This document shows, piece by piece, positions 24,058 to 32,054 of a stretch of 64,000 nt of DNA. The stretch is from Myxococcales bacterium. Its GTDB lineage: Bacteria > Myxococcota_A > UBA796 > GCA-2862545. The first letter of the stretch is position 1; the number at the start of each line of letters is the position of its first letter. Under the pieces are notes generated by a model. That model worked only from the letters and a program-made list of their open reading frames with translations, had not been told where the DNA came from and searched no databases. The DNA is taken from positions 1 to 64,000 of the forward strand of contig JAHQVJ010000152.1 in the NCBI GenBank assembly GCA_019634415.1. The letters are read 5' to 3'. A program made the translations under genes and the position numbers.

Positions 24058-25341
24058 CTAGCGGCGTCTACGCCTGTGCCACAGCAGGCCCCACCCCAAG
24101 GCCAGCCATCCTGGCGCGCCACTGCTGGTGGTGCAGCCCTTCTGGGCCGCGGGCTCCTGCGTCGCACGGATCGTGCAGGTGGCGTCGAGGGGAGCATCGG
24201 TTCCCACCACCACAGCGCGCGCCCGATCGCCGGTGCGGAACGTCAGCGGGGCAGGGGTGTCGGATTGCTCGAGCTGCACGCCTGCGGGACCCAGACGCAA
24301 CCAGGCGGCGCGCACCCCCTCGCCCTCACAGACCAGCTCGTGATCGCCTTCGGGCATCGCGTCGATCTCGGCGTAGTGAGCGGTGAAGGGCGACTGGACG
24401 TGGGTGACGTCGAAGGGAACGTCGAGCTGGGCCGCTTCGATGGGCACCACCGTGTCCACCAGGCAGGGGATGGGATCGTCGAGGTAGTGCTGCCCGTCAG
24501 CGCCTCCACAGGCGAACCCGTTCCAGGTGGCGTAGCGCAGGTACAGCTCGGCGAAGGGGGCTCCGAACTCCCGCGTGGCGGCAGCGTCGAGGCCCTCCCG
24601 CCAGCGCTCCTCGATCGCCAGGTCCTCCCACAGCGCCGGTAGCCGATCGATCTGCGCGCCCTCGGCGGCGAACTCGGTCCAGAACTTCATGAGGAGGAAG
24701 GCGGCGTAGGGGTCTCGATCTCGCGTGCTGCCCAGACGTCGCTCCGGCGACGACAGCTCGGCGTCGAAGAGCACCCCCACGGCCACGTCGAGCACGGGGC
24801 TCGTCACGTGGGAGTACTGCTCGTAGGTGGCAGCAGACTCGTACAGCCAGCCCGGCAGATCCACGCGGTAGCGATACTGCACGCAGTGATGCAGCTCGTG
24901 TAGTGCCACCGACTGGGCCACGTCGCCCAGTAGCTGCAGGTCGGAGTCGACGGTGACGAAGCAGGACGCGCCCTGCTCACCGTCGGCGGCTGGCTCCACG
25001 TAGGCGGTTCCGAACTGGTCGAGGGGCGTGAAGTACACGTCGATGTCGGCGCTGCCGCCCCGGCCGTCGTCGCCCATCAGCGGGCGCCATCCCTCGGCCT
25101 CGAACTGGCTCGCCCCCAGCTGCAGCCCCTCGACCACGGCATCCACCACGTCGGGGAGGCCGTTGCCTTCGCTGTCGCGATCCGACACGGCGTCTTGCCC
25201 GCTGCGGGTGAAGTGCACCCGGAACGGGGGGCTCTCCACCCTCTCGGGGGTGCCCGACAGCTGCGGGCGGGGAGCCCGCCCTCGGTGCAGGTGAGGCGTG
25301 GCAGCAGCGAGGGAGGGGAGCAGGATCCACATGGGACCCAT
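24058..25341 (-). CDS. secreted HExxH metalloprotease candidate with MYXO-CTERM tail
   Basis: A 427-residue protein with an N-terminal signal (MWILLPSLAAA). The zinc motif HELHH lies at residues 148-152. The last 26 residues, starting GCTTSSGAPG at about residue 402, form a Cys / hydrophobic / RRRRR tail of the MYXO-CTERM type, processed by myxosortase for anchoring at the outer membrane surface. The middle resembles MXAN_6640-type putative metalloproteases of myxobacteria, from memory. The start lies 16 bp after the last AIM24 stop, so it is probably in the same operon. The protease activity is inferred from the motif. Confidence 0.83.
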   Translation of the reverse strand: MGPMWILLPSLAAATPHLHRGRAPRPQLSGTPERVESPPFRVHFTRSGQDAVSDRDSEGNGLPDVVDAVVEGLQLGASQFEAEGWRPLMGDDGRGGSADIDVYFTPLDQFGTAYVEPAADGEQGASCFVTVDSDLQLLGDVAQSVALHELHHCVQYRYRVDLPGWLYESAATYEQYSHVTSPVLDVAVGVLFDAELSSPERRLGSTRDRDPYAAFLLMKFWTEFAAEGAQIDRLPALWEDLAIEERWREGLDAAATREFGAPFAELYLRYATWNGFACGGADGQHYLDDPIPCLVDTVVPIEAAQLDVPFDVTHVQSPFTAHYAEIDAMPEGDHELVCEGEGVRAAWLRLGPAGVQLEQSDTPAPLTFRTGDRARAVVVGTDAPLDATCTIRATQEPAAQKGCTTSSGAPGWLALGWGLLWHRRRRR

Positions 25342-25357
25342 CGTACCTGCTCCGACG

Positions 25358-26092
25358 TCAGCCCGTGCGCTTCGGGCCTCCGAAGGGCCACCACCAGAAC
25401 AGGTTGAAGCTACAGCAGCGATGCCACCACCACCGGCGCTTGCGGAAGGGGTGGAGGAACTCGGCCATGCCGATGGAGTCGCGGGTCTGGATCCACACTC
25501 GGCCGTTGCCCGAGAACTGCATCACCAGTCCCTCTCCGCTGCGAAGCAGGGAGTTCACGTTGCCCACGGGCTTGGGGAACCACGACAGCGACTCGTCGAA
25601 GGCCACGATGTGCCCGGTGTCCACGATGCAGGTGCCGGCCACCTGCACCTCTTGGATGGCACCGTAGGCCGACAGCCACAGATCACCGGTGCCCTGACAG
25701 CGCATCATCACGGCCCCCTCGCCGGAGACGTAGCCGCGCAGCCCACCCCACTTGGCAGAGATGTGCACGTCCTGCGTGGAGGCGATGTAGGCCCCCTGCT
25801 GGGTGATGACGGCGTTGCCGTGCAGCGGGATGTGCACGATGTCGCCGGGCTGAGGGGGCGCGATGTCGATGCGCTGACCCGTGCCCGAGGCGGTGTAGGT
25901 GTTGAGGAACAGCGACTCCCCGGACAGCCACCGCATGAACGCGCCCCACGGGCCGCCCGTCATGCTCGTGCTCATGTCCAGGCCCGTGCTCATGGCCATC
26001 ATCGCGCCAGCTTCGGTGCGCACCGAGTCTCCAGGCTTCATGGAGACGTGCAGCGACGCGTAGTTCGGCCGGTTGTGGATCTCGAACTCCAC
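25358..26092 (-). CDS. AIM24 / TIGR00266 family protein, copy 1, with Trp-rich tail
   Basis: GTG 26092 follows GGAGGAGG and gives 244 residues. The family pattern is clear: an N-terminal PNYASLHVSMKPGDSV then EAGAMMAM, a central SGESLFLNTYTA, and late AFDESLSWF and GEGLVMQFSGNGRVWIQTR. This copy carries an additional C-terminal tail with WWW, CC and WWW in about 20 residues (after HPFRKRR), absent from the other two. AIM24 proteins are beta-rich trimeric proteins of unknown bacterial function; the mitochondrial homologue affects inner-membrane architecture. Membrane association of the tail is inference. Confidence 0.9.
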   Translation of the reverse strand: MEFEIHNRPNYASLHVSMKPGDSVRTEAGAMMAMSTGLDMSTSMTGGPWGAFMRWLSGESLFLNTYTASGTGQRIDIAPPQPGDIVHIPLHGNAVITQQGAYIASTQDVHISAKWGGLRGYVSGEGAVMMRCQGTGDLWLSAYGAIQEVQVAGTCIVDTGHIVAFDESLSWFPKPVGNVNSLLRSGEGLVMQFSGNGRVWIQTRDSIGMAEFLHPFRKRRWWWHRCCSFNLFWWWPFGGPKRTG

Positions 26093-26093
26093 G

Positions 26094-26807
26094 CTACCTC
26101 CTCCGCTTGGGCAGAAGCGGGGCCAAGGTCTGGCCGAAGGACTTCGGATTGCGGCTCTGGATCCAGACGCGTCCTTGGCCGCTGAACTCACAGACGAGCG
26201 CCTCCCCGCCGAAGATGGCCTTGATCAGGCCGCGGGAGAAGGGTCGCACGTCGTAGTCGAGGGAGTCCTCGAACGCCACGATGTGACCGCTGTCGACCAC
26301 GTAGTGGTCCTCGATCTGCATCTCCTGGATGGCGCCGAAGCTGTTGAAGGCCACGAGGCCTTCGCCAGATGCGCGCAGCATGTACAGCCCTTCGCCTGCC
26401 AGGAAGGCCTTGGCGCCTCCGAAGTTGGCGTCGACGCCCACGGTCTCGGCACTGCACAGGAAGGCCGCGGACTGCATGATCAGGCCACACTGCTCGCCCA
26501 GCTCGTAGACCTCGATGTCTCCGGCGGTCTTCGGCGCGAAGGTGACGGCGCCCGCGCTGCCCGTGGCCACGAAGCGGTTCTGGTAGAAGGACTCCCCGCC
26601 AAGCATGCGTCGGAAGCCTCCGAAGATGGCTCCCAGGCATCCACGCCTCCGAGCCGCGGGCTCTCGAGAGGCCACCTTGTGGGTGGAGATGGTGACAGCC
26701 GTGTCCATGGAGACCATGGCGCCGCCCTCGGCCACCACCGCCTCTCCGGGCTCGAGGAGCGCCGTGGCCAGAGCGTAGGCCGGGCGATGACTGACCTCGA
26801 TCCTCAT
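26094..26807 (-). CDS. AIM24 / TIGR00266 family protein, copy 2
   Basis: A 237-residue paralogue. VAEGGAMVSMD, GGESFYQNRFVA, AFEDSLDYD and GQGRVWIQSRN correspond to the same family blocks as copy 1. It has a short basic insert (REPAARRRG) before the central block and a basic end (LLPKRRR). ATG 26807 has GGAGG seven bases upstream. Its stop falls one base before the copy 1 GTG, implying co-translation. Function unknown. Confidence 0.9.
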   Translation of the reverse strand: MRIEVSHRPAYALATALLEPGEAVVAEGGAMVSMDTAVTISTHKVASREPAARRRGCLGAIFGGFRRMLGGESFYQNRFVATGSAGAVTFAPKTAGDIEVYELGEQCGLIMQSAAFLCSAETVGVDANFGGAKAFLAGEGLYMLRASGEGLVAFNSFGAIQEMQIEDHYVVDSGHIVAFEDSLDYDVRPFSRGLIKAIFGGEALVCEFSGQGRVWIQSRNPKSFGQTLAPLLPKRRR

Positions 26808-26820
26808 CGGAGTTCCTCCG

Positions 26821-27516
26821 TCACTTCGGCAGGTACGGCTTGACCCAGTCGATCAATGCCGGCAGGTCCCGAGTTTGCATCCACACGGTGCCACGCCCTT
26901 CGAAGCGGAGCACCCATCCCTCGCCGGAGAACATCGTGGAGAACATGTTCCCAGCGGGCTCGAGCATGTAGGTCAGGTCGCCGCTCCACGCCACGACGTG
27001 CCCGTTGTCGATGATGTAGCTGCCGTTGACCTCCACCTTCTCGATGGCGCCGTAGGCATTGATCAACAGGTCGCCGGTGCCGCCGCAGGACAGGAAGAAC
27101 GCTCCCTCGCCCCCGAGCCACATCGACAGCCCACCCCAGCGCACGCTGACGAAGACGTCCTCGGTGCTGGCCAGGTAGTACTCGGCCTGCACGTAGACGC
27201 GGTGCTCCCCGTCGAGGGTGAGCCGCTCCACGTCGCCCACCATGACCGGGGCGAGCAACACGTTGCCCGAGCGCGTGGTGGCCTGGAACGTGTTGACGAA
27301 CAAGCTCTCACCCGCCAAGAACCGGCGCATGATCCCGACGAACGCTGCCCACATCCAGCGCATGATCCCGCGGCGACCCCCCATGAAGCCGGTGTGGACG
27401 TGCAGGTCGTGGCTCATGGCCACCATCGCTCCCGCCTCGGCCGAGATGCTGTCTCCCGGATCGAGCTGAACCACGGCCAGTCCGAAGGACGGACGACCCT
27501 GGATGTCGATCTGCAT
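26821..27516 (-). CDS. AIM24 / TIGR00266 family protein, copy 3
   Basis: A 231-residue paralogue and first of the three in transcription order. SAEAGAMVAMS, AGESLFVNTFQA, LAPVMVGDVERL and GRGTVWMQTRD match the family. ATG 27516 follows AGGGGG. Copy 2 begins 13 bp after its stop. It lacks both the Trp tail of copy 1 and the Arg insert of copy 2. The three copies diverge strongly outside the shared motifs, so the duplication is not recent. Confidence 0.9.
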   Translation of the reverse strand: MQIDIQGRPSFGLAVVQLDPGDSISAEAGAMVAMSHDLHVHTGFMGGRRGIMRWMWAAFVGIMRRFLAGESLFVNTFQATTRSGNVLLAPVMVGDVERLTLDGEHRVYVQAEYYLASTEDVFVSVRWGGLSMWLGGEGAFFLSCGGTGDLLINAYGAIEKVEVNGSYIIDNGHVVAWSGDLTYMLEPAGNMFSTMFSGEGWVLRFEGRGTVWMQTRDLPALIDWVKPYLPK

Positions 27517-30134: not shown

Positions 30135-30416
30135 CTATGCGCGTGCCGTGACTCGCCTCACTGGAATGGTGGAGTGCAGCACCACGCTGGCGCGCAGCCG
30201 GTTGAGCTTGAACTCCACGTCGTCGACGTTGTCGATCTCGCAGTACTTTGCGATCACGCCGATGATCTCTTCCTTCATCCGATCGAGCTGTGCGGCGGAC
30301 AGGTCCACCTGGTCGTGGATCAAGAGGAGCTTGAGGCGTTGCTTGGCTTCATCCTTGCTCGGCGTCTGCTGTTGGCCTCCGCCCAGCGCGCCCTGGAGCT
30401 TGGCGAACAGACCCAT
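30135..30416 (-). CDS. minE: cell division topological specificity factor MinE
   Basis: A 93-residue MinE. The amphipathic membrane-binding N-terminus (MGLFAKLQGALGG) and the anti-MinCD motif RLKLLLIHDQ are followed by the dimerisation domain (MKEEIIGVIAKYCEID). MinE stimulates MinD ATPase and confines MinCD to the poles. Its ATG overlaps the minD stop (TGATG). Confidence 0.96.
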   Translation of the reverse strand: MGLFAKLQGALGGGQQQTPSKDEAKQRLKLLLIHDQVDLSAAQLDRMKEEIIGVIAKYCEIDNVDDVEFKLNRLRASVVLHSTIPVRRVTARA

Positions 30417-31228
30417 CAGACAGCCTCCCGCACTGGGCTCATCCCCATCCAGCGCTTGAACAGTGCCCACACCCCAGCGCTCGCGTCCATGGGTGGAATG
30501 TCCACGTGCAGGCCCATCACCCGGTCGGTGATCCGGCGGAACGCCTGGCCCGGCGGAGACTTCTCTTCGAACACCGCGGGAACTCCCCGGTTGGTGCTCA
30601 CGATGATGTCGGCGTGCTCGGGCACGATCCCGATCAGGGGAATCGCCAGGATCTCGAGGATGTCCTGACGGTTCATCATGTCGCCACGCTCGACCATTCC
30701 TGGCTCGTAGCGATTGATGATGAGGTTGGGCTCGGGCAGCTCGTGGGCCTCCACCAGGCCGATGATGCGGTCCGCGTCGCGGATGGCGCTCACCTCGGGG
30801 GTGGTCACGATGATGGCCCGATCAGCGCCGGCGACGGAGTTCTTGAAGCCCTGCTCGATCCCGGCGGGGCAGTCGATGATGACGTAGTCGTGGAGTTCCT
30901 TGAGGTCGGCCACCACCCGTCGCATGTCCTCGGGAGACACGCTCTGCTTGTCGCGGGTCTGGGCAGCGGGGAGCAGGAACAGCCCGTCGACTCGCTTGTC
31001 GCGGATGAGCGCCTGCTTGATGCGGCACTCGCCCTCCACCACCTGGACCAAGTCGTAGACGATGCGGTTCTCGAGGCCGAGGACGACGTCGAGGTTGCGC
31101 AGGCCGATGTCGGCGTCCACCACTGCACAGGTCTTGCCGGCCAGCGCGATGCCGGCGGCCAGGTTCGCAGCCGTTGTGGTCTTGCCGACGCCACCCTTGC
31201 CGGATGTCACGACGATGCACTCTGCCAT
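30416..31228 (-). CDS. minD: septum site-determining ATPase MinD
   Basis: A 270-residue deviant-Walker ATPase: SGKGGVGKTTTAANLA at residues 9-24, then DADIGLRNLDVVLGLE and DYVIIDCPAGIE. The C-terminal LFKRWMG is the amphipathic membrane-targeting helix. MinD recruits MinC and oscillates with MinE to block polar division. Middle gene of minC-minD-minE. Confidence 0.97.
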   Translation of the reverse strand: MAECIVVTSGKGGVGKTTTAANLAAGIALAGKTCAVVDADIGLRNLDVVLGLENRIVYDLVQVVEGECRIKQALIRDKRVDGLFLLPAAQTRDKQSVSPEDMRRVVADLKELHDYVIIDCPAGIEQGFKNSVAGADRAIIVTTPEVSAIRDADRIIGLVEAHELPEPNLIINRYEPGMVERGDMMNRQDILEILAIPLIGIVPEHADIIVSTNRGVPAVFEEKSPPGQAFRRITDRVMGLHVDIPPMDASAGVWALFKRWMGMSPVREAV

Positions 31229-31256
31229 GGGTCACTCCAAAGGGGTCGGCCGCTTG

Positions 31257-32054
31257 CTAGTTGAAGGGGGATCGGCCCGTGAAGGGTTGGATTCGGACCT
31301 GCTCCTCGGCCACCACGGCCACCTCTGGACGGATCCCGTTGGGGGCGGTTCGGAGGGGCGGAATGGCGATGTTGCGCGCGATCCGCAGCTGGGTGGGCCG
31401 CATGTCGAAGGCGAGGATGAAGGACTGCTCGTCTCCGTGCGCTCCCGCGTGTGCCACGCCCTTCAGGGCGCCGAACACCAGGATGCTGCCGGTGGCCACG
31501 ACGTGGGCGCCGGGGTTCACGTCGCCGTAGACGTGCACGTCGCCGTCGAACCGCACCTGGGATCCCGACCGCAGCGTGCGATGCACCGGAAGCGTGCGCA
31601 CGGAGCCGTCGTCGTGGGAGGGGGCGGGGATGGCCGTGTAGTCATCGGAGTCGGGCGGGCTCGGGATGGGAGCGCTCGCGTCGGTCTCCTGGGCGTCGGA
31701 CGTGGCGGATGCGAACAGCTTCAGCTTGAGCTCACGCTCGGCGAAGCTGTGGATGGCCTCCGCAGGCACGTACAGTCCGGTGATCTCGACGCCGAACTCC
31801 TGGCGGAGGAAGCCCACCAAGCGGCGGAGATCGAACAAGACGATGGGCCGCGACCCGAGATCGAGGCGCGTGGTTCGGCCTCCGATGGCCGCCATCTGAG
31901 CGGGCAGCGAGGCGCGGAGCAGCTCACGCAGGCCTTCGAAGGGGATGTGCTCGGGAAGCACCAAGACCGGGACGGGTCCATCGAAACGAACTCGAATCCC
32001 GGCATCTGTCGTGGACGCGCTCGACCGGGCCCCGGTCGTCGCATGGCTGGACAT
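31257..32054 (-). CDS. minC: septum site-determining protein MinC
   Basis: A 265-residue MinC. The N-terminal FtsZ-inhibiting domain is divergent. The C-terminal beta-helix is typical: RSGSQVRFDGDVHVYGDVNPGA, then GSILVFGALKGVAHAG and ILAFDMRPTQLRIA. An acidic Ser/Pro/Asp linker joins the domains. First gene of the Min operon, with 28 bp to minD. Confidence 0.95.
   Translation of the reverse strand: MSSHATTGARSSASTTDAGIRVRFDGPVPVLVLPEHIPFEGLRELLRASLPAQMAAIGGRTTRLDLGSRPIVLFDLRRLVGFLRQEFGVEITGLYVPAEAIHSFAERELKLKLFASATSDAQETDASAPIPSPPDSDDYTAIPAPSHDDGSVRTLPVHRTLRSGSQVRFDGDVHVYGDVNPGAHVVATGSILVFGALKGVAHAGAHGDEQSFILAFDMRPTQLRIARNIAIPPLRTAPNGIRPEVAVVAEEQVRIQPFTGRSPFN

Follow-up and report, generated by a model that had tools for sequence, protein, structure and literature searches.

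An ordered triad of AIM24 paralogues in Myxococcota and other bacteria, and the proteases encoded beside it

In a myxobacterial contig, three consecutive genes of the AIM24 family are closely followed by the gene of a metalloprotease candidate, which raises the question of what makes up the functional unit at this locus: all four genes, the three AIM24 genes by themselves, or these together with a partner encoded elsewhere. We address it for a window of 64,000 nucleotides, the whole stretch analysed, which covers positions 1 to 64,000 of contig JAHQVJ010000152.1 from a Myxococcales bacterium (assembly GCA_019634415.1). A preliminary description of this window had suggested that the AIM24 trio forms a hetero-oligomer at a membrane and acts with the neighbouring protein as a surface protease. 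In yeast, Aim24 is connected with MICOS (PMC3975624), and in other fungi AIM24 has been linked to cell fusion and MAP-kinase signalling (PMC6162560, PMC13075794). The literature that we searched, outside which many subscription journals lie, yielded no report of the triad described here or of a link between AIM24 and M48 peptidases.

Three AIM24 genes and a metalloprotease candidate

The four genes, with the AIM24 paralogues named A1 to A3 in their order, are listed in Table 1. The open reading frames and profile scores agree with the preliminary description of three AIM24/TIGR00266 genes on one strand: A1 and A2 are separated by 13 bp, A2 and A3 by 1 bp, and all three products lie well above the cut-offs of both Pfam PF01987 (196-206 bits against 25.7) and NCBIfam TIGR00266 (191-202 bits against 96.6). 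They are nevertheless diverged from one another, with A2 and A3 sharing 37% and 43% identity with A1.

Table 1. The AIM24 genes and their downstream neighbour, in window positions
Feature	Position	Strand	Properties
A1, first AIM24 paralogue	26821-27516	-	231 aa; PF01987 196 bits, TIGR00266 191 bits; position-1 tree group
A2, second AIM24 paralogue	26094-26807	-	237 aa; PF01987 201 bits; position-2 clade, support 98/99; C-terminal LP-x-R class
A3, third AIM24 paralogue	25358-26092	-	244 aa, GTG start; PF01987 206 bits; position-3 group; C-terminal HPFR motif
MXAN_6640-like HExxH metalloprotease candidate, MYXO-CTERM tail	24058-25341	-	427 aa; NF045524 95.7 bits, TIGR03901 20.9 bits; unlinked in relatives

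The fourth gene begins 16 bp past A3. Its translation contains the HExxH motif within the stretch ALHELHHCVQ, and its product looks secreted on reading the sequence. It matches the MXAN_6640_HExxH family (NF045524) with an E-value of 3.9e-27, yet stays below the curated cut-off of 140 bits, and the Pfam profile search gave no M48 match for it. The MYXO-CTERM-type tail that had been noted for this protein is borne out by TIGR03901 at residues 402-427, if marginally, with a score just above the cut-off of 20.

Several further features of the locus and its genome may be recorded here. The C-terminal tail of A3 (positions 25358-25430) is aromatic and basic (KRRWWWHRCCSFNLFWWWPFGGPKRTG); it is present in the congener and absent from the other A3 tails that we printed. 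Upstream of the triad and on the same strand lie minE, minD and minC (30135-32054), with two genes in between, one for a phosphoesterase and one of unknown kind, and the congener keeps minE and minD as well as the two genes nearest to the triad. A fourth AIM24 gene of this genome stands singly on another contig (C172; L001/L049) and groups with actinobacterial and planctomycete singles, outside the triad groups. Scans of the region for promoters and terminators found none, which is uninformative, as only 0.3 and 1.0 were expected.

A conserved set of three paralogues

Triads of this kind are widespread. In the window's own family, most members with AIM24 genes have a contiguous triad in the same order, and among 284 Myxococcota genomes, 110 have an AIM24 match: 73 with at least three copies, 35 with one and just two with two. 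Planctomycetota show the same split, so that genomes positive for AIM24 mostly carry either one copy or at least three, and seldom two. A scan of named genome contigs found further triads in planctomycete metagenome-assembled genomes (MAGs) and in others labelled as Proteobacteria or Bacillota. Across 94 triads, the order is fixed and the two gaps have medians of 11 and 9 bp. The genes beyond the triad, by comparison, are oriented nearly at random (in the set of 103 triads, the first downstream gene is on the same strand in 54 cases and on the opposite strand in 46, the first upstream gene in 45 and 50), which argues that the trio generally stands as a unit by itself.

The three genes also have separate histories. 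We built a tree of 231 AIM24 domains that takes in 53 triads, drawn from Myxococcota, Planctomycetota and other MAGs; in it, the triad genes cluster in three groups according to their position and not according to genome. In a second, more careful tree of 91 rows, the position label changes four times, against a minimum of three and a mean of 50 after shuffling; support is high for position 2 (98/99) and lower for position 1 (68/90), where the deep branches are moderately supported. Each position further carries its own C-terminal signature: the motif [HYWQ]P[FY]R is found in 76 of 94 A3 proteins and in no A1 or A2, and W[ILVT][TISV]P is limited to A1, where 63 of 94 have it. The three groups resemble one another in their internal branching (at each position, for example, L045 joins L163 and L166), and pairwise distances between positions correlate across triads with r of 0.83-0.90. 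Both interaction and inheritance as a set could produce such parallel divergence, and inheritance may account for all of it.

A few sequences fit this scheme less clearly. A long-branch group of single AIM24 genes falls within position 3, a placement that we treat as unsure. Large Actinomycetota genomes (L156, L157, L160) contain two more tandem sets of AIM24 genes, which are strongly diverged; these were left out of the position labels, and long branches blur their placement in the tree. The A3 matches of three planctomycete genomes are interrupted, each falling into two parts of a single open frame (L172, 6776-7504; L211, 5596-6324; L212, 5362-6090), which suggests an insert near profile position 150. 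We also looked for single open reading frames with several full-length AIM24 domains, which would be direct evidence of a complex, and found none; the frames with multiple hits were either pieces of a single split domain or actinobacterial hits of poor resolution.

Judging from gene order and phylogeny, the AIM24 trio is an old, ordered module that spans several phyla. Given three specialised paralogues in one conserved module, a hetero-oligomer is the natural reading, and the sequences make it probable that A1, A2 and A3 are distinct subunits of a single complex. The paralogues might instead be redundant or condition-specific homo-oligomers that were merely left in tandem. Single AIM24 genes are common elsewhere and must function alone, and we found no heteromeric AIM24 structure, both of which suit such an arrangement; but the fixed order, the retention of all three lineages across phyla and the scarcity of genomes with two copies speak against redundancy, and we regard separate homo-oligomers as a possible but rather doubtful explanation.

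Two different proteases beside AIM24 genes

If the trio is a unit, does the adjacent HExxH protein belong to it? The common strand, the gap of 16 bp and the general synteny retained in the congener G001 would suit an operon of four genes that encodes one functional unit at the cell surface. We searched 38 relatives for orthologues of the protease, and a conserved linkage between AIM24 genes and a MYXO-CTERM HExxH gene, expected if the two act together, was not found among them. In G001 itself, the orthologue (52% identity) lies about 2.7 kb from the triad, and a sulfatase gene and an open reading frame on the opposite strand intervene. In six relatives that have both (G008, G010, G011, G013, G014 and G020), the triad is on one contig and the orthologue (37-44% identity) on another, and two genomes of the same order (G024 and G033) have the protease and no AIM24 match. 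Furthermore, A1 to A3 show no signal peptide on reading their sequences, whereas the protease looks secreted. A joint operon and surface unit is thus highly improbable, and we dropped the partnership. As far as gene neighbourhoods can tell, the HExxH gene encodes a separate, apparently secreted protein, and its adjacency to the triad is a genus-level, incidental feature. What stands of the module put forward in the preliminary description is therefore the set of three specialised paralogues, with its position groups, fixed order and C-terminal motifs.

A different protease recurs beside AIM24 genes in other genomes. We clustered the genes around 56 triads, and then around 103. One gene alone, a Pfam M48 peptidase next to A1, kept the same position in different lineages; the other recurrent clusters of the 103-triad set were scattered in position or limited to a few loci. 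Of the 94 triads for which 600 bp or more of upstream sequence are available, 18 have the M48 gene adjoining A1 (12 on the same strand, 6 divergent), although several of the 18 are closely related, so that the number of independent cases is smaller, perhaps ten. The chance expectation is about 0.1, taking 5 M48 genes per 5000 genes; the genomes have 2-10 M48 matches each. The same clustering bears on a proposal in which the module is a component of a TerD-type stress response, with TerD proteins rather than an M48 protease as partners. It derives from a published survey, cited in PMC5822837, in which AIM24 genes lie beside TerD genes. M48 was alone in being fixed in position around the 103 triads, and no TerD-type family occurs among the ten genes that we scanned around the triads of the window and its congener (seven of them neighbours in the window), which leaves a TerD partnership unlikely for this module.

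The linked M48 protein consists of a PH-like N-terminal domain, a transmembrane helix and a BepA-type M48 domain (hereafter PH-TM-M48). Its structural model is of modest confidence (mean pLDDT 70.7) and has 3c37 and BepA as top Foldseek matches (E-values of 6e-10 to 6e-6). The N-terminal domain, which has no Pfam match, is modelled with seven strands and one helix and brings up numerous PH domains, all of them weak matches (E-values of 0.003-0.08). In some divergent myxobacterial copies, a proline-rich stretch takes its place. Several members have a basic stretch ahead of the long helix, from which we predict that the PH-like domain is cytoplasmic and the protease domain periplasmic.

The association extends to single AIM24 genes. 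On ten contigs (L056-L062, L067, L068 and L114), of which eight are titled Melainabacteria, Obscuribacterales or Cyanobacteria and two carry no phylum name, a PH-TM-M48 gene lies 21-45 bp downstream of a single AIM24 gene, and its N-terminal domain is homologous to that of the triad-linked form (hhalign, 97%). Co-occurrence points in the same direction: 24 of the 284 Myxococcota genomes match the linked M48 subtype with at least 234 bits, and 23 of these carry at least three AIM24 genes. As the profile was built partly from linked genes, only genomes with a non-adjacent M48 gene provide an unbiased test; nine of these ten have at least three AIM24 genes (Fisher p = 3e-5, relatedness ignored), including in the count of ten one genome, G218, whose M48 gene lies about 2.9 kb away.

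The link is not universal, as M48 genes stand beside a minority of triads. No PH-TM-M48 gene adjoins the triad of the window, whose genome has two matches to a linked M48, both on other contigs, and among the 284 Myxococcota genomes, those of the window's family have no high-scoring match to the linked subtype. In this lineage, the triad thus does not depend on the M48 link.

A putative membrane-face complex and its known relatives

Where might an AIM24 module act? Lacking a signal peptide, A1 to A3 are placed in the cytoplasm. Yeast Aim24 faces the mitochondrial matrix and withstands alkaline extraction from the inner membrane, although no transmembrane segment is predicted for it (PMC3975624). 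From these two points we infer that the bacterial module is found at the cytoplasmic face of the membrane. The AlphaFold2 model of A1 (mean pLDDT 87.5) has a short hydrophobic, amphipathic helix in an inter-strand loop (residues 55-66), where model confidence is low (about 55). The loop is longer in myxobacterial A1 proteins, and in the window's A1 it is rich in tryptophan.

We therefore tend, by a modest margin of belief, towards a stand-alone, ancient A1-A2-A3 module that forms a hetero-oligomer at the membrane face, is paired with an M48 protease in some lineages and has the HExxH gene of the window as an incidental neighbour. The three subunits would assemble as one complex, most simply with one copy of each, and the hydrophobic loop helix of each could seat it at the inner membrane, on the cytoplasmic side, where it may serve as a scaffold or as a sensor of membrane state. 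In lineages with PH-TM-M48, AIM24, whether as this complex or as a single protein, might localise or gate the protease through the PH-like domain. A more tentative proposal, which we hold to be a good deal less probable, takes this last role as the general one: AIM24, single or three-subunit, would be the cytoplasmic regulator of the PH-TM-M48 protease in several phyla, with this OMA1-like, membrane-anchored protease as its effector, and as such the bacterial counterpart of mitochondrial Aim24, acting on the equivalent side of the membrane.

The triad and its recurrent M48 neighbour offer two handles in bacteria, since the putative complex could be purified and the protease assayed. Should the M48 link be functional, it would also provide a simple system for asking how mitochondrial Aim24 acts at the inner membrane.

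Among known proteases, the linked M48 protein shares the M48 domain and its HExxH motif with BepA and LoiP, the nearest solved sequences being 3c37 and BepA, but it differs from them in its additional N-terminal PH-like domain and transmembrane helix and scores far below both cut-offs. It presumably resembles OMA1. The HExxH protein of the window is closest to the MXAN_6640 family, though short of full membership, and only marginally of the MYXO-CTERM type. For AIM24 itself, the solved structures 1pg6 and 1yox have both the family and the predicted fold in common with A1: Foldseek confirms the AIM24 fold of the A1 model (E-values of 3.1e-18 and 4.1e-13, respectively), and phmmer gives 5e-24 and 1e-19. 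These are single proteins, whereas the window encodes three diverged, position-specific paralogues in one conserved module. Likewise, yeast mitochondrial Aim24 belongs to the same domain family as A1 to A3, and its membrane-bound, matrix-facing state without a transmembrane helix fits a role at the cytoplasmic face (PMC3975624); unlike the bacterial trio, it is one protein, tied to MICOS and cardiolipin.
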